From positions 1-25,715 of IMG/VR virus record IMGVR_UViG_3300026519_000058: 25,715 bases of DNA; one strand, 5' to 3'. Below, piece after piece: positions 18,020 to 25,522 of this stretch (positions within the stretch are counted from its first letter, which is position 1; each line of letters opens with the position of its first letter). Below the pieces are notes generated by a model that ran no database searches, had not been told where the DNA came from, and saw nothing but the letters and a program-made list of their open reading frames with translations. Origin of the DNA: a virus. A program made the translations under genes and the position numbers.

Positions 18020-19444
18020 ATGTTTAGACAGTGGTTTCGCAAACAACAAGATCCCCAAAAGGCACTGCCGCCCATCCGTTACGACAGCGAAGCGGCGTTT
18101 ATCACCATCGAGGCGGTCAAAAGTGCCCTCGAAGAGAACGATATCGCCAAGATCGTCAAACTCTTTTCGCTCTTTGAGGCGCGAGATCTCAAGATCGCCG
18201 AAGGGATCGAGAAGCGCCAAAACGCCCTAGCGACCATCAAGCCCGCCATCGAAGCGGGCGAAGCGGAGCGGCGGATCATCGACGCGATGTTCGATCGGGT
18301 CGATGTCTCCGATTATCTCTATGCGATATCCGACGCGGTCTATTACGGCTTTTCTATGGTCGAGCTGCACTACGAGATGCACGAGGGGATGCTGCTGCCC
18401 GTGCGCATTACCCATCACGAACCGACCTTGCTGCGGCGCGACCCAAAAAAAGGCTTCTATCTGCCCGGAAAAGAGGAGCGCCGCCACTACATCGATGCGC
18501 TCTCTCCTAGACTCTACCTCTACAACCACACCAAAAGCGACGCGCACCTCCACACCAAAGCGCTTGCCTATAAGCTGCTCTACTATGCGCTGCTCAAGCA
18601 TGTGACCATCGGCTTCAATGTCCAGTACTTCGACTCGCTCTCTGTGCCGCCGCTCATCGTCAAGTCTTCGCAGCTCTCCGACGAAGAGCACCTCCAAGCG
18701 CTCCAAAGCGCGCTCATGGCGCTCAAGTCCAACAGCTACGGGATCTTCCCCGATACGATCGATCTGGACTCGCTCAAGGTCGGATCGCAGGCCGATTTCC
18801 AAAAACTCATCGACTACTTCGACGCGCTCATCGCGCAGTACCTGGTCGGCGCCACATCCGTCGGAGACGGCAGCGCAGGCTCGATGGCGCTGGCAAAGAT
18901 CCAGCAAGAGCGCTTCAGCGAGAAGATCGCCTTTGACGCCGCGCGCGCGGCAAGAGGGCTCAAAGAGATCGTCACCCAAACCCTCGCGCTCAACCTCGCA
19001 CGCTTTAGCCCGCCCAAGATCACCCTGCCGGTACCCAACTTCACCGATGCGGAGCAGTTTGCCACCGTGGTCGAAAAGCTGGGAAACGGAGGGTACGATG
19101 TGGATACCGGCGATATCTCCGAACGCCTCGGCATCACCGTCACCAAACGCGCCGACATCTCCGCGCCGGCAACGCCGCAAAAAGAGGAGAACGCACGCCA
19201 AGAACACCTCGCGCGATCCAAGCCGCTGGATGCGGTGCAAGCGCGCATCGACACCGACGACATCAAGCAAGCCGAAGCGGCATTGGTGCGCCGCGTAGAG
19301 CGCGCGCTTAGCGAAGCAAACAGCTACGAAGAGGCGTACGCGATGCTGCATCAAGATCCAGGTACCGATATCGACGCGATGGAGGAACTGCTGCACCGCT
19401 ACATCGCCAACGCGCAGTTGATGGGAATGAGCGATGACATTTAG
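18020..19444 (+). CDS. Portal protein (Mu gp29 / DUF935)
   Basis: This is a 474-residue portal subunit that forms the dodecameric DNA gate. Signatures include ALEENDIAKIVKLFSLFEAR followed by DLKIAEGIEKRQNALATI near the N-terminus, YAISDAVYYGFSMVELHYE, and the YFDALIAQYLVGATSVGDGS stretch typical of DUF935. The C-terminal 100 residues are Ala/Glu-rich and helical. The ribosome site AAAAAGGAG precedes the ATG. It overlaps the F-like gene by 11 bases. Confidence 0.93.
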   Translation: MFRQWFRKQQDPQKALPPIRYDSEAAFITIEAVKSALEENDIAKIVKLFSLFEARDLKIAEGIEKRQNALATIKPAIEAGEAERRIIDAMFDRVDVSDYLYAISDAVYYGFSMVELHYEMHEGMLLPVRITHHEPTLLRRDPKKGFYLPGKEERRHYIDALSPRLYLYNHTKSDAHLHTKALAYKLLYYALLKHVTIGFNVQYFDSLSVPPLIVKSSQLSDEEHLQALQSALMALKSNSYGIFPDTIDLDSLKVGSQADFQKLIDYFDALIAQYLVGATSVGDGSAGSMALAKIQQERFSEKIAFDAARAARGLKEIVTQTLALNLARFSPPKITLPVPNFTDAEQFATVVEKLGNGGYDVDTGDISERLGITVTKRADISAPATPQKEENARQEHLARSKPLDAVQARIDTDDIKQAEAALVRRVERALSEANSYEEAYAMLHQDPGTDIDAMEELLHRYIANAQLMGMSDDI

Positions 19445-20672
19445 CTTTTCGCGCGATCCCAAAGAGGCGATTGCTTACCTCAAGGACAAAAAGCCCCAAC
19501 TGCATTTTGACTATGACGAGATCATGCACGAGGCGCACCACAAAGCCTTTACCGTCGCCAAGATCACGCGGCTTGATCTGCTTAGCGACATCCACGCATC
19601 GCTCATCCACGCGCAAAAAGAGGGTATCCCCTTAAACGAATGGAAAAAACGCCTAAAACCGACGCTCAAACAAAAAGGCTGGTGGGGCGATATCGAGGTG
19701 ACCAACCCGCGCACGGGGGAGGTGAAACAGATCTATGTCGGTTCGCGCCGGCTGCGCACGATCTTTTATACCAACGCCCGCGTCTCGTACAATGTCGGGC
19801 GCGCGCAGATGCAGTACGCGCTGCCTGAGGCGCAGTACCTGCGCTATGTGGCGATCCTCGATGGGCGCACCCGCCCGTCACACGCCAAAAACCACGGCGT
19901 CATCCGCCACCGTGACGATGCGTTTTGGGCGACGCACTACCCGCCAAACGGCTGGAACTGCCGCTGTCGCGTGCAAGCCTACAGCCTCAAGCAGATCAAA
20001 CGACAAGGCTGGGAGGGCAAACTCAACGCCCCGCTTTATGACATCGCGCACAGCGACTGGCGTTACGATGTGCGACACGATACGAAAAAAGCGCTGGAAG
20101 CCTACGCTAAAAAACGCATCGCCAAAGCGCCCAAAGAACTTGCTGCTGCCGCCGCGGCATCGATGAGCAAAACACCTTATGAAGTGCGCAAAAAGCAGCT
20201 CAACAAAATGATCGACGAAGTGATCGTCAACGAAGACCCAACCTATCCGATCAACGTCATCGAGATCGGAGTACTCACCGACGAAATCGTCAGCGCCATT
20301 AAGTCGGTGCTTGATAAAAAGGTGGAAACCTACGGGATCGTACTGGAGAAGTCCGCACTAATGCACGCATCGCCAAAACGCAAAGACGCATACAAAAACC
20401 CGAAAGGGTTAACCGTGGACAATATAAGAGAAATCGTCGATGTACTTGATAACCCGGCAGAGATATATATAGATACCGATCCAAAACACGGAGATCTCGT
20501 GTATGTTTTCCCTGACCAAACAAATACGGCGAAAAAAAACAAGATCATCATACATCCCAACAGGTCTGTTAAGAAATTTGGTAAGACGAATGCCGTCGTT
20601 ACGCTGGACAAAGGGAGCAAAAAAGAGATTGAAAAAAACATCGAGGCAGGAGTATATATACGCGTCAAGTAG
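19434..20672 (+). CDS. F: Mu F-like minor head protein fused to a toxin-like nuclease domain
   Basis: This is a 412-residue protein. Residues about 105-185 are the Mu F core: RTIFYTNARVSYNVGRAQM, ILDGRTRPSHAKNHGV and YPPNGWNCRCRV. From about residue 245 a separate domain begins, with LEKSALMHASPKRK (His311), NIREIVDVLDNPAEIY and LVYVFPDQTNTAKKNKIII. This pattern (helix, HA, helix ending NP, then beta strands) resembles the PBECR barnase/EndoU-like nuclease domains found at the C-terminus of F proteins in temperate phages (MuF polymorphic toxins). The domain may be delivered with the phage or act in the lysogen. The catalytic residues cannot be proved here. Its last codons are duplicated downstream at 21707. 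Base composition becomes more AT-rich towards the 3' end. Confidence 0.8.
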   Translation: MTFSFSRDPKEAIAYLKDKKPQLHFDYDEIMHEAHHKAFTVAKITRLDLLSDIHASLIHAQKEGIPLNEWKKRLKPTLKQKGWWGDIEVTNPRTGEVKQIYVGSRRLRTIFYTNARVSYNVGRAQMQYALPEAQYLRYVAILDGRTRPSHAKNHGVIRHRDDAFWATHYPPNGWNCRCRVQAYSLKQIKRQGWEGKLNAPLYDIAHSDWRYDVRHDTKKALEAYAKKRIAKAPKELAAAAAASMSKTPYEVRKKQLNKMIDEVIVNEDPTYPINVIEIGVLTDEIVSAIKSVLDKKVETYGIVLEKSALMHASPKRKDAYKNPKGLTVDNIREIVDVLDNPAEIYIDTDPKHGDLVYVFPDQTNTAKKNKIIIHPNRSVKKFGKTNAVVTLDKGSKKEIEKNIEAGVYIRVK

Positions 20673-20716
20673 CGGCGGGAGTCGAACCCGCAATATCCGC
20701 ACACACGCTGACAAAC
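20608..20716 (+). repeat. 109-bp direct repeat, copy 1 (end of F plus tRNA-like 3' half)
   Basis: This copy covers the last 21 codons of the F-like gene and 44 bases beyond it. It matches 21707-21815 with 3 differences in 109 bases, the differences all being in the coding part. The non-coding part carries GCGGGAGTCGAACCCGC, the reverse complement of a tRNA T-arm, but here the 5' half of the tRNA-like element is missing: the match stops at ACAAAC and continues into cargo DNA. Confidence 0.9.
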
Positions 20717-20815
20717 TAACCGGAAATATCATTATTTACGGACAGGAGATACGCGCCGACTGGTTGTTGCATATCACCATGCACTTTTTTGTTTTTTTTG
20801 AAAAAAATGAATAAA

Positions 20816-20873
20816 GTTAGAATATAACTAACTGATTTAATAATTATTTAAGGAAAGTTAGGCTATACTTAAC
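20816..20873 (+). promoter_or_regulatory. Cassette promoter with two operator-like sites
   Basis: Two 17-base sites, GTTAGAATATAACTAAC (20816-20832, perfect 5-bp arms) and GTTAGGCTATACTTAAC (20857-20873), begin 41 bases apart, close to four helical turns. The second overlaps the -10-like TATACT (20864-20869); the -35 is weak. A start near 20876 would give a short leader with AAGGAG ahead of ATG 20899. The layout suggests repression by a dimeric regulator, possibly the second cassette protein. Confidence 0.5.
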
Positions 20874-20898
20874 ATATATAAATAAAAAGGAGTACAAA

Positions 20899-21132
20899 AT
20901 GTATAACATCATTGATAGACTTGAGGCTAAAGGTTGGAGAGTAAGCACAGGTAGAGCAACTAATAACGATGGGTATATTATCGCAGAAAAAGACGGTAAG
21001 CGTATAACTATCGACTATATTAAGCCTGCCGACCAGTTCCGTGTAAAATCAAATAGTAAAGAGGTCTGGGTAAATGCAGACATGTACATACCTGAGGATC
21101 TTGATCCTGCGATTGAGGAGGTCATATCATGA
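20899..21132 (+). CDS. Cassette protein 1, 77 aa (unknown)
   Basis: This small acidic protein begins MYNIIDRLEAKGWRVSTGRA and continues with alternating strands (GYIIAEKDGKRITIDYIK; EVWVNADMYIPEDLD). The predicted fold is one helix then a small beta-sheet. It has no signal or membrane segment. AAGGAG lies 6 bases before the ATG, and the stop overlaps the next gene's start (ATGA), so the two are coupled. Surrounding DNA is clearly more AT-rich than the phage, suggesting recent acquisition. Immediately following a toxin-like domain, it is an immunity or antitoxin candidate by position only. Confidence 0.6.
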   Translation: MYNIIDRLEAKGWRVSTGRATNNDGYIIAEKDGKRITIDYIKPADQFRVKSNSKEVWVNADMYIPEDLDPAIEEVIS

Positions 21133-21575
21133 GAATGAATTGGGTAATCAATTATCATTTTTGTTTTGCAAAGCTAAATGATAATCATATGGAGGTAATT
21201 ATCCGTCAAACGGATGATCCTACCCCCCAAATCGTTAATAGAAAAAAAATCACTTTTGGATTTACAAAAATCGAAAGTGAAAAGAACTATCAGGCTTACA
21301 TTCGCCATATCTCTGATATACTTTTCGATAACATCATTAAAAATCCACAATTATTAGCAGAGTTGGGGTCTTCACTTGGTGATTCGTTTAATGAGTATAG
21401 TTGGATTGATTCTCGAAAAGCAGATATGTTTCAATGTCTTGGTAAATATCCAAAACAACAAGACTTAGCGGATTATCTCAACGTAAATAAGGCTACTGTT
21501 AGCGTATATCCGAAACAAAAAAAAGAGCTTATGCTCCATGGTCTTTGGCTTAAGAAGTTTTTGGGTGATCTTTGA
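21129..21575 (+). CDS. Cassette protein 2, 148 aa, possible HTH regulator
   Basis: The N-terminal 100 residues (WVINYHFCFAKLNDNHMEVI; KKITFGFTKIESEKNYQAYI) are of unknown fold. Residues about 107-140, YPKQQDLADYLNVNKATVSV followed by YPKQKKELMLHGLW, have the spacing of a helix-turn-helix (QQDLADYLNVNKATVSVY), so DNA binding is likely. It could bind the paired sites upstream of the cassette. It is AT-rich and coupled to the 77-residue gene. No family recognised; an antitoxin/immunity or regulatory role is inference. Confidence 0.6.
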   Translation: MRMNWVINYHFCFAKLNDNHMEVIIRQTDDPTPQIVNRKKITFGFTKIESEKNYQAYIRHISDILFDNIIKNPQLLAELGSSLGDSFNEYSWIDSRKADMFQCLGKYPKQQDLADYLNVNKATVSVYPKQKKELMLHGLWLKKFLGDL

Positions 21576-21601
21576 TCTTTGATCACTAAAATATTTTTTT
21601 T
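21565..21601 (+). terminator. Intrinsic terminator of the cassette
   Basis: GTGATC (21565-21570) pairs with GATCAC (21581-21586) across a 10-base loop. The stem is followed by TAAAATATTTTTTTT. The stem is short but the U-run is strong, and it lies at the end of the second cassette gene, which ends inside the loop. Confidence 0.45.
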
Positions 21602-21706
21602 GATGTTTTTGTGTTTGAAAAGAGCAGGATGCAACCTTTACTGTAAATAATATATGATTGCGACATTCTTTCTGTGTATTTTTGCCGTTTTTTATCTGTT
21701 TTTACA

Positions 21707-21772
21707 ACAAAGGGAGCAAAAAAGAGATTAAAAACAACATCGAGACAGGAGTATATATACGCGTCAAGTAGC
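21707..21772 (+). pseudogene. Orphan 3' end of an F/toxin gene
   Basis: The frame KGSKKEIKNNIETGVYIRVK-stop corresponds to the end of the F-like protein's toxin domain (KGSKKEIEKNIEAGVYIRVK) with three changes. It has no upstream homology and no start. Orphan C-terminal tips left behind the active gene are typical of polymorphic toxin loci. Confidence 0.7.
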
Positions 21773-21815
21773 GGCGGGAGTCGAACCCGCAATATCCGCA
21801 CACACGCTGACAAAC
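21707..21815 (+). repeat. 109-bp direct repeat, copy 2
   Basis: This is the downstream copy of 20608-20716 (106 of 109 bases identical). It contains a fragment of the last 21 codons of an F-like gene, ending in the same VYIRVK-stop, with no start or body: an orphan toxin tail. Beyond the repeat, the sequence continues into the complete tRNA-like element. Copy 2 is therefore probably the original junction of F to G, and copy 1 plus cassette the newcomer, or the reverse. Confidence 0.9.
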
Positions 21816-21861
21816 AGCGCACACGTCCCGCTACCACGTTGCGACCATCGCCACTTAACGC
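21761..21861 (-). ncRNA. tRNA-like structured RNA (degenerate or novel)
   Basis: Read on the minus strand, a perfect T-arm (GCGGG-TTCGACT-CCCGC, 21790-21774) directly abuts CGCTACTTGACGC (21773-21761). That 13-base strand pairs with GCGTTAAGTGGCG (21861-21849), with 11 Watson-Crick and 2 G:U pairs; the G:U pairs exist only in minus-strand RNA. A D-arm-like TCGC-AACGTGGTA-GCGG follows. A central hairpin GCGCT-GTTTGTC-AGCGT sits where an anticodon arm would be (TTG at the anticodon position). Acceptor to T-arm spans 89 bases, like a class II tRNA, but linker lengths are wrong and no CCA is encoded. So it may be a decayed tRNA or a tRNA-like regulatory RNA. Confidence 0.45.
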
Positions 21862-21868
21862 ATACGTC

Positions 21869-21897
21869 ATTATACCAAAAAAAGGACACCGATGCAA
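21869..21897 (-). promoter_or_regulatory. Extended -10 promoter for the tRNA-like RNA
   Basis: On the minus strand TTGCAT (21897-21892) lies 17 bases before TATAAT (21874-21869), which is preceded by TGG to make an extended -10. The expected start, 7 bases downstream, coincides with the first base of the 13-bp stem at 21861. The -35 overlaps the start codon of the G gene on the other strand. Confidence 0.5.
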
Positions 21898-22320
21898 ATC
21901 CTCATCGACGATCAAGAGCTCAAAGACGCACTAAAACGCCTCGCCGAGCACGCAAGCGACCTTACGCCCGTTATGCAAGAGATCGGGAACCTCTTGCAAA
22001 ACGAAACGGAGCTAAGTTTCGAGCGGCAGCGTTCGCCGGCAGGAAGACCGTGGACACCGGCGAAAAAAAAGCGGGGGCTCACCCTCATCGACAGCGGCAG
22101 ACTGAGCCACTCGTTCGGCTACGACGCTGCAAAAGATAGCGTCGCGATGGGTACCAATCTCGTCTACGCGCCCATTCACCACTTCGGCGGTCGCGCCGGT
22201 CGCGGTAAGCGTACGGTATTGCCGGCGCGGCCATTTATGCCGGTAGAGGACGGATCGCTTACCGATGCGACGAAGGAAGCAATATTGGAGATGATGGCGG
22301 ACTATCTGGCGGGGTCGTAG
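21892..22320 (+). CDS. G: Virion morphogenesis protein G (Mu gpG / P2 gpS family)
   Basis: This is a 142-residue protein with QEIGNLLQNETELSFERQRS, PAGRPWTPAKKKRGLTLIDS, GRLSHSFGYDAAKDSVAMGT and the C-terminal LPARPFMPVED. These are the signatures of the phage_tail_S/gpG family of head-tail completion proteins. It normally follows F directly; here 1.2 kb of cargo and tRNA-like DNA separate them. AAAGGA precedes the ATG. The 3' end overlaps the convergent GemA gene by 19 bases. Confidence 0.92.
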   Translation: MQILIDDQELKDALKRLAEHASDLTPVMQEIGNLLQNETELSFERQRSPAGRPWTPAKKKRGLTLIDSGRLSHSFGYDAAKDSVAMGTNLVYAPIHHFGGRAGRGKRTVLPARPFMPVEDGSLTDATKEAILEMMADYLAGS

Positions 22321-22745
22321 TCGGGGTTGTTGGCAAGTGTGGGACGCGGACGCGGCTTGAGCCCCTTGACCGCGGCGATCATCTTGGCCGCCTCTTGTGG
22401 AGTCAGGTCGTCAACCGCCTTTTTATACCCCAAGATGCGCTTGACATACCCCTCAAGCGCGCTTTCGCTCGGTACGCGGGCGCGCTCGCTCCACAGATGC
22501 CGCAAAAACCCGAGCTGCTGATGTGAGGCGGTGTGTGTCGGGGGCGTGTCGCGCTTCATCTCCATATACTCCACCAGATCGATCAGCACCCCAAGGGGCA
22601 ACTCCTTAGAGCTATCCACCCCCAAGTGCTTTTTGAGAAACGCGCGGTAGGCGATGGGGTCGTCCGCAAAGAGCGCCTTGTAGCGTTCGCTTGTATGCAG
22701 CCGGCGCAGCAGGCTGATCTGGTAGCCTCGTTGTTTAGCGGTCAT
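22302..22745 (-). CDS. gemA: GemA-like regulator (Mu gp16 family)
   Basis: This 147-residue protein begins MTAKQRGYQISLLRRLHTSE, has FLKKHLGVDSSKELPLGVLI (the family's LG.DSSK.L pattern), then QQLGFLRHLW and ALEGYVKRILGYKKAVDDLT. GemA/gp16-family proteins of Mu-like phages are early proteins; Mu GemA alters host gene expression and DNA supercoiling. ATG 22745 is chosen (AAGGAG 6 bases upstream; small overlap with the preceding gene) over a longer frame without a ribosome site. It is the last early gene and converges on the head operon. Confidence 0.85.
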   Translation of the reverse strand: MTAKQRGYQISLLRRLHTSERYKALFADDPIAYRAFLKKHLGVDSSKELPLGVLIDLVEYMEMKRDTPPTHTASHQQLGFLRHLWSERARVPSESALEGYVKRILGYKKAVDDLTPQEAAKMIAAVKGLKPRPRPTLANNPDYDPAR

Positions 22746-23001
22746 GGCGGCTCCTTGCATCCTCAAGCCATACGCGCAGCTCTTGCGCCTTGTCGGCGTC
22801 GACCAGCTCCAGCAGCTCGTTGAACCTCTCGCCATCAGAGCTTAGCAAACGGTAGACCACCCGCAGCAGCAGCGCGATGGCGACGTCGCTTTTGTCTTTG
22901 TCAAGCTGCTGCCAAAAGAGCGACTCGAAGGTCTCAAAATTTGGCGAAAAGTCGGTAAACTCTTTGAGCCGTGCGTAGGCTCTCTTCTCTATGGCGTTCA
23001 T
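22735..23001 (-). CDS. Hypothetical early protein, 88 aa
   Basis: This begins MNAIEKRAYARLKEFTDFSP and is wholly helical and charged (ESLFWQQLDKDKSDVAIALL, ELLELVDADKAQELRVWLED). ATG 23001 has GGAGGAG upstream; the longer open frame upstream has no ribosome site and unlikely composition. It overlaps GemA by 11 bases, so it belongs to the early operon. No family recognised. Confidence 0.65.
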   Translation of the reverse strand: MNAIEKRAYARLKEFTDFSPNFETFESLFWQQLDKDKSDVAIALLLRVVYRLLSSDGERFNELLELVDADKAQELRVWLEDARSRHDR

Positions 23002-23053
23002 AACTCCTCCGATGATAGACTCAACAGAGCGGATCGAGATCCGCTCGATGAGG

Positions 23054-23470
23054 CTACTTGACCACGCTGACCGCCGGGGCTTTTGGCTTGATAGCAAAGC
23101 ACGAAGCGACCGCATCGTCTTCCAGCGCCATCTCCTTTAGCTTGGGTTGTGGTCTGTACTCGACCTTGACACTCACAAGATCGGCGAAGCGATCGCCAAG
23201 CTTCTCTTCCAGCGCCTCTTTGTCGGCGATCTTGATATCCCATCCAAACGCCACCTTTACGCCGACATCCTCTTCGACCATATAGGTAAGCGTCTGCGTA
23301 TCGCTTCCGTCCAAGATCGCCTCAGCCGCATGCGCCAGCGTCTCTTTAAGCGTTTTTAGTTTAGCGTTGAGCGCGTCGATCTCCTCTTTGACCTCGACAA
23401 ACTCCAGTGCGGCGGCGTGTGCTTTCCTGTCTTGCACTTCGATACTCTCTTTACCGATTTTTATGACCAT
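23054..23470 (-). CDS. Hypothetical early protein with coiled coil, 138 aa
   Basis: This begins MVIKIGKESIEVQDRKAHAA, followed by a charged helix (about residues 18-54: FVEVKEEIDALNAKLKTLKE). A beta/alpha C-terminal domain follows (DVGVKVAFGWDIKIADKEAL, DLVSVKVEYRPQPKLKEM). Mu-like phages usually carry the DNA-end protector Gam in this region, but the sequence does not look like Gam. It overlaps the preceding 45-residue gene by 20 bases. Function unknown. Confidence 0.65.
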   Translation of the reverse strand: MVIKIGKESIEVQDRKAHAAALEFVEVKEEIDALNAKLKTLKETLAHAAEAILDGSDTQTLTYMVEEDVGVKVAFGWDIKIADKEALEEKLGDRFADLVSVKVEYRPQPKLKEMALEDDAVASCFAIKPKAPAVSVVK

Positions 23471-23588
23471 AGCGTACTCCTTTTAGCAGTGATTTAACCC
23501 GCGATGCGAGACCTCTTTCTTTTTTGTCGTTGTCATCGATCGCCCGCGCCGCGGCGACGGACATCGCGATCTTTTTGGCTATACCCAT
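23451..23588 (-). CDS. Small basic early protein, 45 aa
   Basis: The frame opens at ATG 23588 with AAGGAG upstream and reads MGIAKKIAMSVAAARAIDDN, then DKKERGLASRVKSLLKGVRY. The first 18 residues form an amphipathic or weakly hydrophobic helix, the rest is basic. It overlaps the next gene by 20 bases. Unknown; supported mainly by its ribosome site, length conservation with neighbouring small genes and position. Confidence 0.5.
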   Translation of the reverse strand: MGIAKKIAMSVAAARAIDDNDKKERGLASRVKSLLKGVRYGHKNR

Positions 23589-23644
23589 AAGACTCCTTTG
23601 TGTTAAGGTAGCGAAAAACGCTCCATGCAACCGCGCGCACGCGG

Positions 23645-23872
23645 TTATAGCAGCGTTTTGGCTTGATGTTGGCGAAATTCGCGGCTAAGCTGCGCGAACA
23701 GCGCCTGCACGCTGCGACACGCCGAACGATTGTCGAGCCGTTTGCCGCACTCCAGCTCGATGACAACCCCGCCCCTCTCCGTCAGTACCGCGCCGACGAT
23801 ACGCGATGTGCGTATGGCGTTGTCTTCAACAAAAAAGACCCTCTCGCCCATGCGTACCGTGTCGCAGCTCAC
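23645..23872 (-). CDS. Hypothetical early protein, 75 aa
   Basis: The likely start is GTG 23872, overlapping the HTH gene's stop (GTGTGA context) with GGGAGG upstream; ATG at residue 8 is an alternative. The first half is a small beta domain (GERVFFVEDNAIRTSRIVGA, GGVVIELECGKR) and the second a charged helix (VQALFAQLSREFRQHQAK). No family recognised. Confidence 0.6.
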   Translation of the reverse strand: MSCDTVRMGERVFFVEDNAIRTSRIVGAVLTERGGVVIELECGKRLDNRSACRSVQALFAQLSREFRQHQAKTLL

Positions 23873-24135
23873 ACCACACCTCCCGCTTCGATACAGCTGG
23901 CGCGAACCGATGTCGAGATCTTGCCGCGGCGCAAGAAATAGGGGTCGATGTGCCTCTTGCGCTGCATAAAGTTACGACCGATCTTGGCGCGCAGGGTAGA
24001 CACTTCCGCATAGTCAACGAGCATGGGGTATGCACCGCGCGTGTGGATACCGTGTTTTTTGATATACCAGCGAATCGTTGAGAAGGATACCCCAAGCCTC
24101 TCTGCCGCTTCGCGTACCGTCATCCATCTTCTCAT
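23869..24135 (-). CDS. Small HTH DNA-binding protein, 88 aa
   Basis: This begins MRRWMTVREAAERLGVSFST followed by IRWYIKKHGIHTRG, a MerR/excisionase-like winged helix-turn-helix at residues 5-35. The C-terminus is basic (RAKIGRNFMQRKRHIDPYFL). ATG 24135 overlaps the preceding stop (ATGA) and has GGGAGG upstream; the longer open frame is rejected. As a small early DNA-binding protein it could regulate phage transcription; the target is unknown. Confidence 0.7.
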   Translation of the reverse strand: MRRWMTVREAAERLGVSFSTIRWYIKKHGIHTRGAYPMLVDYAEVSTLRAKIGRNFMQRKRHIDPYFLRRGKISTSVRASCIEAGGVV

Positions 24136-24269
24136 CGTCCGCCTCCCATCAGCATCAAATGCAACGCATATTGACGCGCCGTCAGCGTGCGCACATCCGC
24201 GCCTTGACGCGCCATCGCGCGCATCCATCGCTTCATTTTGTGTGAGGGTTTCTCTTTTTTAGCGTTCAT
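24132..24269 (-). CDS. Small basic protein, 45 aa
   Basis: ATG 24269 with AAAGGA upstream opens a frame reading MNAKKEKPSHKMKRWMRAMA, then RQGADVRTLTARQYALHLML. It is strongly basic with a probable helix-turn-helix-like C-terminal half (DVRTLTARQYAL). It lies 11 bases after gene B and overlaps the HTH gene by 4 bases. Unknown function; context makes it a likely gene. Confidence 0.6.
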   Translation of the reverse strand: MNAKKEKPSHKMKRWMRAMARQGADVRTLTARQYALHLMLMGGGR

Positions 24270-24280
24270 CTGTTATCCTT

Positions 24281-25141
24281 TCAGTCCAAAAAGATCATCG
24301 ACGACGCGGCTTTGATATGCCCCGCCGCCAGAGGCTCGCCCTGCATACGCGCAAAGCGTTTGGCTTTGGCGAAGAGGTTGACCGCGCGGCGCAAGTGCCT
24401 TGTGTAGCGCCCGATCGTCTCGGCAAAATCCCCAAAGAGCAGGCGCATATCCTCGTCGCTAAGTTCGCCAAACTCCCAACGCCCCTGGATCCGACTGTAC
24501 AGCTGCAACAGTTCGCCGTTTTGTCCTTTGAGGTTTTTGAGCAGCCCGTAGGTACCCACCAAGATCACCGGCACGCGGCTAAAGTCGTAGATGCGTCGTA
24601 TCACCTCCAGCCCCTTGACGGTCAGGTGCTCCGCCTCGTCGATGACCAGCACGCTGTCGCGCCGGCTAAACTCTTTGGCGATAGCAAAGACCAGCTCGTC
24701 GCTGGCGCGGATCCCGCCGATGCCGATGGCGTTGGCGATGGTGCGCAGCAGACTGTCCACGCGGATACCGGGTACCACCTCCACAAAGACCGCCTCTGGG
24801 TGCTGCGCGACAAACGCGCGTGCCACCACGCTCTTGCCGCTGCCGGGGATCCCGTAAAGCACCGCCATCTCCTTGTTGACCACTGCCTCGTCAGCCACAA
24901 ACATCGCAGAGCGGTAGTTGCTAAGATCTACGATGCTCTCCGCAGGCGTCTCTGCCGATTTGGCGGCGTAGTTGGTCATAAACTGCCCAAGGCTCTTCTC
25001 CAGCTCCGTCGTGTCGCCCTTGTATTTGCCGTGCATCCACTGCGATATCTGCGACGAGCTGATACCCAAGCTTCGCGCCACATACGCCTGCTTGAGCCCC
25101 TCGCGCTCCAAAAATCGTCCGAACTCTTTGCGTAAATTCAT
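24281..25141 (-). CDS. B: Transposition ATPase B (MuB-like)
   Basis: This is a 286-residue AAA+ ATPase that would bind target DNA, stimulate the transposase and confer target immunity. An N-terminal helix-turn-helix (residues 17-42: KQAYVARSLGISSSQISQWM) precedes the ATPase domain with Walker A GIPGSGKS (97-104), Walker B VLVIDEAE (164-171) and sensor VILVGT (192-197). The C-terminus has YTRHLRRAVNLFAKAKRFAR. ATG 25141 has AAAGGAG; an in-frame ATG 25 codons upstream lacks one and lies in the loop of a large inverted repeat. MuB itself is 312 residues. Confidence 0.93.
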   Translation of the reverse strand: MNLRKEFGRFLEREGLKQAYVARSLGISSSQISQWMHGKYKGDTTELEKSLGQFMTNYAAKSAETPAESIVDLSNYRSAMFVADEAVVNKEMAVLYGIPGSGKSVVARAFVAQHPEAVFVEVVPGIRVDSLLRTIANAIGIGGIRASDELVFAIAKEFSRRDSVLVIDEAEHLTVKGLEVIRRIYDFSRVPVILVGTYGLLKNLKGQNGELLQLYSRIQGRWEFGELSDEDMRLLFGDFAETIGRYTRHLRRAVNLFAKAKRFARMQGEPLAAGHIKAASSMIFLD

Positions 25142-25156
25142 CTGTTCTCCTTTGAT

Positions 25157-25278
25157 GGCTTGGCAAGACCCACACCGAGGGGCGGGCGGAAGTTTGTCGG
25201 GAATGGGGTATGGCATACGATCAAAAAGGAAAACATGAGATCACCGCCCGCCCCCGGGTGTGGGTCTTGCCTCAAGCC
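25157..25278 (-). repeat. Long inverted repeat / RNA hairpin ahead of gene B
   Basis: Arms 25162-25189 and 25244-25271 are complementary over 28 bases except for two positions, and the pairing extends outward with GGCTTG (25157-25162) and CAAGCC (25273-25278) around a 2-base bulge. The 54-base loop has no gene. In minus-strand RNA one of the two exceptions is a G:U pair. The stem ends 15 bases before the gene B start. No T-run follows, so it is not a standard terminator. A MITE or REP-like element is the alternative. Confidence 0.8.
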
Positions 25279-25287
25279 GAAGCTTGA
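25272..25287 (-). other. Hairpin with UUCG tetraloop
   Basis: The minus-strand RNA reads UCAAGC-UUCG-GCUUGA, a 6-bp stem with the very stable C(UUCG)G loop. It shares bases with both flanking hairpins, so it cannot form fully alongside them. Confidence 0.6.
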
Positions 25288-25321
25288 ACGAAGGTTAAAC
25301 GCCCGTTTAACCCTCGTTCAA
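25284..25321 (-). repeat. 18-bp inverted repeat over the stop of the zinc-ribbon gene
   Basis: Arms 25284-25301 and 25304-25321 are complementary with a 2-base loop and one exception, which is a G:U pair only in minus-strand RNA. The arm read first contains the TAA stop of the zinc-ribbon gene (25309-25307). The centre carries the GTTAAACG/CGTTTAAC core also seen near 17957-17996. Confidence 0.75.
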
Positions 25322-25522
25322 ACCCCCTTGATCCTCATCGTCATACTCGCCGATATCTCGCATATACTCGACATACTCCAGATTGAGCCTGTCGGCATAG
25401 ACGGCCTCTTTGGTCTTGAAGGTGTGGCCGCATATCTGGCAACGGCGAAACCGTATCGTATAGAGCCCCTTGATCGTGCCGTATACCCGCGTTTTTTCGT
25501 GTGCGCATTTAGGACATGTCAT
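25307..25522 (-). CDS. Small zinc-ribbon protein, 71 aa
   Basis: This begins MTCPKCAHEKTRVYGTIKGL and continues RFRRCQICGHTFKTKE: two CxxC pairs (CPKC and CQIC) 25 residues apart form a zinc ribbon similar to that of NrdR or Ogr/Delta-type phage activators. The acidic C-terminus (EYMRDIGEYDDEDQ) could contact other proteins. It sits between the probable transposase gene (stop only 2 bases upstream of its ATG) and gene B, an unusual position since A and B are adjacent in Mu. A nucleic-acid-binding regulator is likely; the exact role is unknown. Confidence 0.75.
   Translation of the reverse strand: MTCPKCAHEKTRVYGTIKGLYTIRFRRCQICGHTFKTKEAVYADRLNLEYVEYMRDIGEYDDEDQGGLNEG

Follow-up and report, generated by a model that had tools for sequence, protein, structure and literature searches.

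Structured antisense RNA genes beside the predicted RNase domain of Mu-like phage head proteins: candidate RNA antitoxins

Head proteins of the MuF type carry C-terminal RNase-like (MuF-C/PBECR) domains in temperate phages, according to the accessible parts of two studies (PMC5576092, PMC5512222). The accessible text of Iyer 2017 (PMC5512222) describes fusion of PBECR to MuF, calls the copy in Mu inactive and predicts its orthologs to be RNases. IMG/VR virus record IMGVR_UViG_3300026519_000058, of which the whole stretch analysed here comprises 25,715 nucleotides (nt) and is called the window, encodes a Mu F-like head protein (F) with a C-terminal extension. The tip of F recurs downstream of an AT-rich insert (the cassette) with two open reading frames (ORFs), and is followed by gene G (Table 1). 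This raises the question which element between F and G belongs to the C-terminal domain. A sequence-only reading, made from the letters of the window, had looked for immunity or antitoxin genes in the cassette. The conserved partner of F is, however, a tRNA-like RNA encoded on the opposite strand and not the cassette; that reading had overlooked the RNA as the conserved counterpart of the RNase domain. Judged from sequence comparison, we consider it probable that the locus combines a modular BECR-fold RNase, carried on the F head protein, with an antitoxin or immunity RNA that would bind and inhibit it.

The C-terminal domain of F and the adjacent tRNA-like RNA

Residues 52–180 of F match Phage_Mu_F (PF04233, E 1.5e-21), and a match to phrog_220 extends to residue 394. 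An AlphaFold2 model of the C-terminal 177 residues was obtained from 21 sequences (predicted local distance difference test, pLDDT, 90.2; predicted template modelling score, pTM, 0.84), and 991 PDB chains were re-aligned to it. The top nine rows are RelE (Z 5.2), TnsB (5.2), RelE (5.0), BrnT (4.8), a Mediator subunit (4.5), entry 1tfk (4.2), which we take to be colicin D, HigB (4.2), a contact-dependent inhibition (CDI) toxin (4.0) and Cami1 (3.8). Seven of these nine are RNase toxins or RNase-domain proteins sharing one fold, and ten BFVD matches at E ≤0.001 include a MuF C-terminal domain protein and nuclease-named proteins. The model and its matches, most of the top ones being RNases of the RelE/colicin D type, thus support the earlier suggestion that the extension is a toxin-type domain. 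No PBECR, MuF_C or other Pfam match was found for the C-terminal stretch of the window's F. Among the F proteins of relatives, PBECR2 is matched above the cut-off (L037, L033) and PBECR3 below it (L030, L038), while the MuF_C profile matches L162 above and Mu below the cut-off. The domain is taken here as a predicted BECR-type RNase.

On the minus strand of the window, ARAGORN calls a tRNA at 21765–21856 (Ala-TGC), the shape of which was judged unconvincing. By eye, the RNA displays an 11-base-pair closing helix, a G-U-rich hairpin and a D-loop, with neither a usable anticodon arm nor a decoding cloverleaf with a 7-base-pair acceptor; its T-arm has 5 of 5 pairs, rows of the comparison having been chosen by their T-loop. 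In seven relatives (L002–L008) there is no insert, and a minus-strand tRNA-like element stands alone between F and G; ARAGORN called no tRNA in L002–L013. More such elements were found in Helicobacter and Campylobacter prophages, in a Methylobacillus genome and in phages with a junction also present in Escherichia coli. In total, 23 copies from 22 loci (including the window) were tabulated, and since these rows were picked by T-loop, the T-loop is not independent evidence. The T-arms have 2 to 5 of 5 pairs, an acceptor-like helix closes the element, the arms are kept across very different sequences, and the middle hairpins inspected look unable to decode by eye. All 22 copies besides that of the window are without an insert, and the RNA overlaps or lies near the F stop codon. 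In this comparison of the F–G interval in relatives, as suggested by the sequence-only reading, the insert is absent and the tRNA-like RNA is the conserved element. In E. coli, NCBI annotates a tRNA-OTHER antisense between F and G in the record opened and in 8 of 8 rows listed; the query was matched in 173 of 5426 genomes, with at least 80% of its length in 163. No exact 30-nt match to the RNA was found among viral contigs.

Covariation of the D18–T55 tertiary pair is suggestive only. By eye, most tRNA-like copies combine G18 with U55, L003, L007, L015, L021, L098 and L101 combine A18 with G55, and L002 and L004 are ambiguous; automatic D-arm picks were wrong for some rows, including the window. 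In Campylobacter gastrosuis (L024, 4188–4359, minus strand), one F gene is followed by two different tRNA-like RNAs in tandem. Pseudoalteromonas Mu-like loci (L060, L063–L066, L068, L087) display several short CGTTTAAA-like repeats past F, with no structured RNA visible.

A promoter-like box accompanies the RNA. Among 104 non-redundant domain-bearing loci, the stretch 55–150 nt downstream of the F stop contains a TATAAT-like box on the minus strand in 61 cases and on the plus strand in 37 (shuffles: 31.4), and TGnTAnnnT gives 30 versus 7 in the same loci. Without the domain, the box is found on the minus strand in 2 of 16 loci and on the plus strand in 3 (shuffles: 4.2). T-arms occur in 18 of the 104 on the minus strand and in 2 on the plus strand (expected: 3.6). 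Of 131 loci with the domain, 51 are significant (p ≤0.04) in a scan for promoter plus helix, as is one of the 18 without it (L094); for the closing helix against shuffles (p ≤0.05), the counts are 24 of 117 and 1 of 19, respectively.

Presence and type of the RNA relative to the RNase domain

For comparison, 152 distinct F loci were assembled, with identical F proteins and loci with too little sequence past F removed and near-identical ones retained. G was located past F in 80 of them, at a distance of at most 10 nt in 15. Eleven of these 15 lack the extra domain, and the other four (Mu, L009, L083, L052) carry it with residues of the active-site region lost. Compared with the closest relative, an 8-residue stretch with the relative's two His is gone in Mu, and the His-containing stretch together with part of the late Thr/Ser motif is gone in L009 and L083; L052 is a weak case of a damaged domain, because its closest relative L040 is likewise without visible RNA. 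Conversely, 61 of the 65 loci with an F–G distance of at least 36 nt bear the domain, the remaining four (L020, L053, L084, L122) having short or broken frames, with G 430–1060 nt away. The RNA signal is not significant for six F proteins whose C-termini are not BECR by eye, which presumably are metallopeptidase-like (L076, L159, L025), ADP-ribosyltransferase-like (L150), JAB-like (L067) or unclear (L071). A gap alone does not imply an RNA, because L076, L159 and L025 have F–G gaps.

RNA likeness was compared across 97 non-redundant F proteins. It correlates with domain likeness when the N-terminus is held fixed (partial rank correlation 0.108; 0 of 300 permutations), and to a smaller extent with the N-terminus when the domain is held fixed (0.069, also 0 of 300). 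The mean excess RNA alignment score is 21.0 in 131 pairs with like domains versus 0.59 in 4233 pairs with unlike domains, and 0.94 in 593 pairs with like N-termini and unlike domains. The window and L026 resemble each other in the N-terminus (score ratio 0.81) but not in the domain (0.04) or in the RNA (score 5.5). L045 and L192, which belong to one genome, are identical at 210 of 244 N-terminal residues, differ in their domains and carry a T-type and a K-type RNA, respectively. The exchange of C-terminal modules in the F family, assumed by the sequence-only reading, is seen in both pairs. As shown by this comparison, the predicted RNase domain and the putative RNA are swapped jointly between phages, and the fold tracks RNase type more than the rest of F. 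It is likewise comparison of loci that establishes the position, structure and promoter-like box of the candidate RNA, its co-variation with RNase type, its absence where the RNase is absent, and co-transfer.

Distant Mu-like phages have other structured RNA folds at the same site past F. In the K class, the loop CUCCC of a D-like arm can pair with GGGAG of a T-like loop, and by eye this pair changes on both sides (CUCUC/GAGAG in L023, CUCGC/GCGAG in L079, CUGCC/GGCAG in L217). In 11 K copies, 97.5% of cells are paired and 16 of 22 pairs vary on both sides. The covariation score is 0.771 versus 0.215 when shuffled, with 0 of 500 shuffles reaching it; the score benefits from an alignment that was fitted to the structure, and slid versions give at most 0.16. 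When 46 sources were searched with a model built from three copies, the remaining four K loci were recovered, without any further match up to E 1.

The K search covered 1347 genomes. A sample of 298 Campylobacterota was searched at E 0.01; the other three sets, searched at E 0.001, were 385 genomes from the class to which L079 belongs, 369 from that of L045 and 295 from the phylum that includes L030. It gave 32 matches in 29 genomes, four of which (G004, G302, G303, G307) are search centres or seeds with known K RNA. A PBECR3-profile ORF is located near 19 of the 32. Thirteen of these are on MuF (L185, L190, L192, L193, L201, L203, L206, L207, L216, L217, L223, L226, L231), of which L185, L190 and L193 are themselves part of the profile. 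One (L188) is a longer protein beside an SPP1-portal-like gene (portal match below cut-off), and five are other, mostly short proteins (L199, L200, L202, L221 and L230, the last about 320 nt away). Short PBECR3-type proteins without MuF are encoded in L200 (1591–2052, 153 amino acids), L199 (878–1507, 209) and L202 (1089–1535, 148). An antisense K RNA accompanies the 3' end of each gene, and the neighbours are, by eye, rho-like, cystathionine lyase-like and hslU-like, respectively; these may be chromosomal toxin-antitoxin pairs. L192 has a second, truncated PBECR3 domain downstream of F on the opposite strand (1473–1958, minus), either an inversion exchange or an artefact of the end of its 3029-base contig.

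Seven of the 32 K matches lie 62–790 nt from an array of clustered regularly interspaced short palindromic repeats (CRISPR), six without PBECR3 (L186, L187, L204, L205, L220, L222) and one with it (L221). The CRISPR detector fires in one of 178 F loci and at one of the 19 PBECR3 matches. A Cas1 gene is near L187, and in L194 and L195 the RNA has a TATAAT-like box and no RNase gene nearby. In G051 and G017, which have the RNA and no PBECR3 nearby, no toxin was found elsewhere in the genome by the PBECR3 profile, which did recover G004 and G261; a single-sequence toxin query missed G004 and is uninformative. In L219, a K RNA without PBECR3 lies among restriction-, PIN toxin- and Fic-like ORFs by eye.

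The repeat and the insert of the window

The sequence-only reading had described a near-identical repeat of the F tip and the bases downstream, AT-rich DNA with two ORFs in between, and half of a tRNA-like RNA within the repeat; all three hold. The copies of the 109-nt direct repeat are identical at 106 positions (97%), which is not by chance, and are 1099 nt apart from start to start. Their three mismatches (20631, 20636, 20646) all fall within F-tip codons, and the 53 nt of the RNA 3' half are without difference. The left copy holds the F tip and the RNA 3' half only, and the insertion break is the loop of the RNA's middle hairpin. The GC content of the insert (Table 1) compares with 51.8% in F and 58.3% in G.

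Table 1. Features of the window, and K-type RNAs adjacent to CRISPR in other loci (positions in the respective locus)
Feature	Position	Strand	Remarks
F gene, Mu F-like head protein with C-terminal RNase-like domain	19434..20672	+	412 amino acids; Phage_Mu_F, phrog_220
F C-terminal domain, predicted BECR-type RNase	20139..20669	+	AlphaFold2 model, PDB and BFVD matches
Left repeat copy	20608..20716		F tip and RNA 3' half (RNA portion 20664–20716)
AT-rich insert between repeat copies	20717..21706		GC 33.3%
Cassette ORF 1	20899..21132	+	77 amino acids; no relatives found
Cassette ORF 2	21129..21575	+	148 amino acids; helix-turn-helix (HTH)-like segment at C-terminus, family match below cut-off
Right repeat copy	21707..21815		orphan F tip, slightly different allele, and RNA 3' half
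Complete tRNA-like RNA gene	21763..21859	-	ARAGORN, relatives; right repeat copy runs into its other half
TATAAT box of RNA gene, putative -10	21869..21874	-	read from sequence; box enriched at same place in relatives
G gene (virion morphogenesis)	21892..22320	+	Phage_tail_S, E 1.6e-27
CRISPR-adjacent K-type RNA, L194	3947-4039		
CRISPR-adjacent K-type RNA, L195	4753-4842		
CRISPR-adjacent K-type RNA, L214	3998-4092		
CRISPR-adjacent K-type RNA, L215	4395-4491		

The two cassette ORFs overlap, and gave only weak matches with no family assigned in Pfam, PHROGs, NCBIfam and PADLOC, and no relatives among viral contigs. ORF 2 had no match in phage or plasmid sequences, and 3 of the 298 genomes in the Campylobacterota sample hold partial relatives. 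One has a DnaB-like gene as neighbour; the other two match through an HTH segment at the C-terminus and come from loci that contain integrase-like genes, all these labels being given by eye. ORF 1 matched in none of the 298. A consistent partner or neighbour was not found in the loci compared. The cassette looks like a one-off insertion, with no support for the immunity or antitoxin role once proposed for its genes. The insert resembles foreign DNA of a mobile element, acquired by this single phage together with the tip of a slightly different F allele, possibly by an integrase-like event. A diversity-generating retroelement was set aside, as the three differences between the copies (G/A, A/C, G/A) are not limited to the adenines of one copy; a reverse transcriptase was not searched for. 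On the minus strand of the window (22302–25522), ORFs resemble Mu-type early genes by eye, including a MuB-like ATPase (24281–25216); no family search was made for these.

Proposed mechanism, alternatives and significance

The RNA behaves like an antidote: its type follows that of the RNase, loci with a missing or damaged RNase lack it, and it is found both with the RNase on other proteins and on its own. Since the RNA of the window's class has a tRNA elbow, a decoy of the substrate is suggested. We hypothesize that the C-terminal RNase of F is probably carried in the virion and injected, and that a cognate structured RNA gene, which would have its own promoter on the opposite strand and overlap the F stop codon, most likely yields an RNA that binds and blocks the RNase. 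In the window's class, the RNA may mimic the elbow and acceptor of a tRNA and act as decoy for a tRNA-directed RNase. Such an RNA would shield both the lysogen and the cell that produces phage against F, whether made within or injected by sibling phages, and RNase domain and RNA would travel jointly between phages. In the window, a foreign AT-rich piece would have entered the distal loop of the RNA gene, and the same event would have produced second copies of the F tip and of the RNA 3' half, leaving the F tip intact and the RNA gene whole with its promoter. Transcription of the RNA, its binding, the inhibition and tRNA as the target are what we infer from these comparisons.

Several observations weigh against this explanation. 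L027 and L143 retain the His-containing stretch of L028, and L040 retains its own basic stretch, yet no RNA is visible past F. The promoter-plus-helix scan is significant in just the 51 domain-bearing loci given above, and 25 of the 131 score zero, some of them with an RNA by eye (L048, L140, L142) and others without. G-U/A-C asymmetry gives no strand signal (39 versus 38 overall; 23 versus 14 for strong helices, p 0.19). All PDB Z values are modest (<8) with no individual match strong, and Foldseek gave no PDB match for the F domain at E 0.001. PBECR3 is missing from the sequence examined at 13 of the 32 K matches (L186, L187, L204, L205, L218, L219, L220, L222, L224, L225, L227, L228, L229), among which contig ends truncate L224 and L225, L227 has masked bases and L229 is doubtful. 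Folding z-scores of the window's RNA are only -0.98 and -1.16, and Rfam gave no match at gathering in the window and 7 loci, nor at E 0.05 in 7 further loci; for these reasons, the case for the RNA rests on comparison.

Among the alternatives, the RNA might serve the F domain instead of inhibiting it, either as a cofactor or guide that the domain requires to be active, or as cargo that is packaged together with F and injected. Association of RNA type with domain type, as well as loss of the RNA with dead domains, would follow equally, but RNAs with a TATAAT-like box and no RNase gene nearby (L194, L195), together with the 13 K matches just listed, fit immunity more easily, and we regard this possibility as unlikely. 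Its antisense orientation and overlap with the F stop would also suit a cis-antisense regulator or processing signal of the F–G transcript. This appears less likely still, considering that the K fold is kept beside unrelated carrier genes and also without a PBECR3 gene, and that the RNA fold varies with RNase type at like N-termini.

The break in the middle-hairpin loop with duplication of the 3' half, as at tRNA attachment sites, and the foreign base composition of the insert would be expected if the repeat with its tRNA-like half were an integration or recombination target and the cassette exchangeable cargo or immunity. The other 22 tRNA-like copies are without insert, however, which also leaves the recurring exchange hotspot envisaged by the sequence-only reading unsupported; by eye, no integrase ORF was recognised in the insert, and the cassette ORFs have no consistent partner. 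We therefore consider it improbable. A host tRNA as integrase target is not our main reading either, as the RNA sits inside the late operon of many Mu-like phages. That the RNA is a decayed or acquired ordinary tRNA gene, as the calls by ARAGORN and NCBI might imply, is very improbable: the copies inspected are without a usable anticodon arm, arms are kept in very different sequences, and other phages carry other folds at the same place.

Extending the proposed RNA antitoxin beyond the window, we tentatively suggest, with somewhat more doubt than confidence, that phage-head BECR RNases and structured antisense RNAs may constitute a new polymorphic class of protein-RNA toxin-antitoxin systems. 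Each RNase family would have its own RNA fold, either the tRNA-like elbow or the longer D/T loop-loop kiss. Of three forms of the system, two would have the RNase on a phage head protein or on a short chromosomal protein, and the third would consist of the RNA only. The RNA in CRISPR loci would then be a guard against a phage-injected RNase, perhaps one aimed at CRISPR RNA (crRNA) function. This guard reading of the CRISPR-adjacent K RNAs is only the boldest one, and the CRISPR neighbourhood was unexpected.

Known systems share parts of this layout. CreTA is a CRISPR-linked toxin-antitoxin system in which CreA resembles crRNA and works with Cascade; an RNA element in CRISPR loci is common to both, but the K RNA is associated with a BECR-like RNase. 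The fold of the F domain is shared by colicin D, RelE and CDI tRNases, whereas their immunity or antitoxin is a protein, and we know of none of them that rides on a phage head protein. MuF polymorphic toxins, like the present system, have an RNase-like domain at the C-terminus of a MuF head protein; the accessible text on them (PMC5576092, PMC5512222) gives immunity as a protein and describes no RNA partner. Type III systems such as ToxIN/CptIN share an RNA antidote against an RNase, here proposed by association; in the accessible part of the source, their tandem-repeat RNA lies upstream and is co-transcribed with a ToxN-like toxin (PMC12373285), in contrast to one antisense RNA at the F 3' end with its own promoter-like box and a BECR-like toxin. 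AbiF/RCd22 of C. difficile, as far as described in the accessible part of the same source (PMC12373285), also pairs a toxic prophage protein with a neutralising structured RNA, but AbiF is of HEPN type and its RNA motifs are repeated and upstream, so that fold and layout are unrelated to the F system. A literature search found no description of the present RNA; preprints and most subscription papers were outside its coverage, so this is not proof of its being unpublished.

If the proposed explanation is true, MuF toxins would gain a missing piece, namely an immunity determinant that is an RNA and not a protein, and the gapless F–G junction in Mu, whose RNase has been called inactive, would be explained alongside the gap in many relatives. 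The tRNA-OTHER annotations in Mu-like prophages of E. coli may find a possible explanation as well. RNA-antidote systems would gain a new layout and a tRNA mimic with a testable target, and a link of phage-injected RNases to CRISPR loci would become testable.

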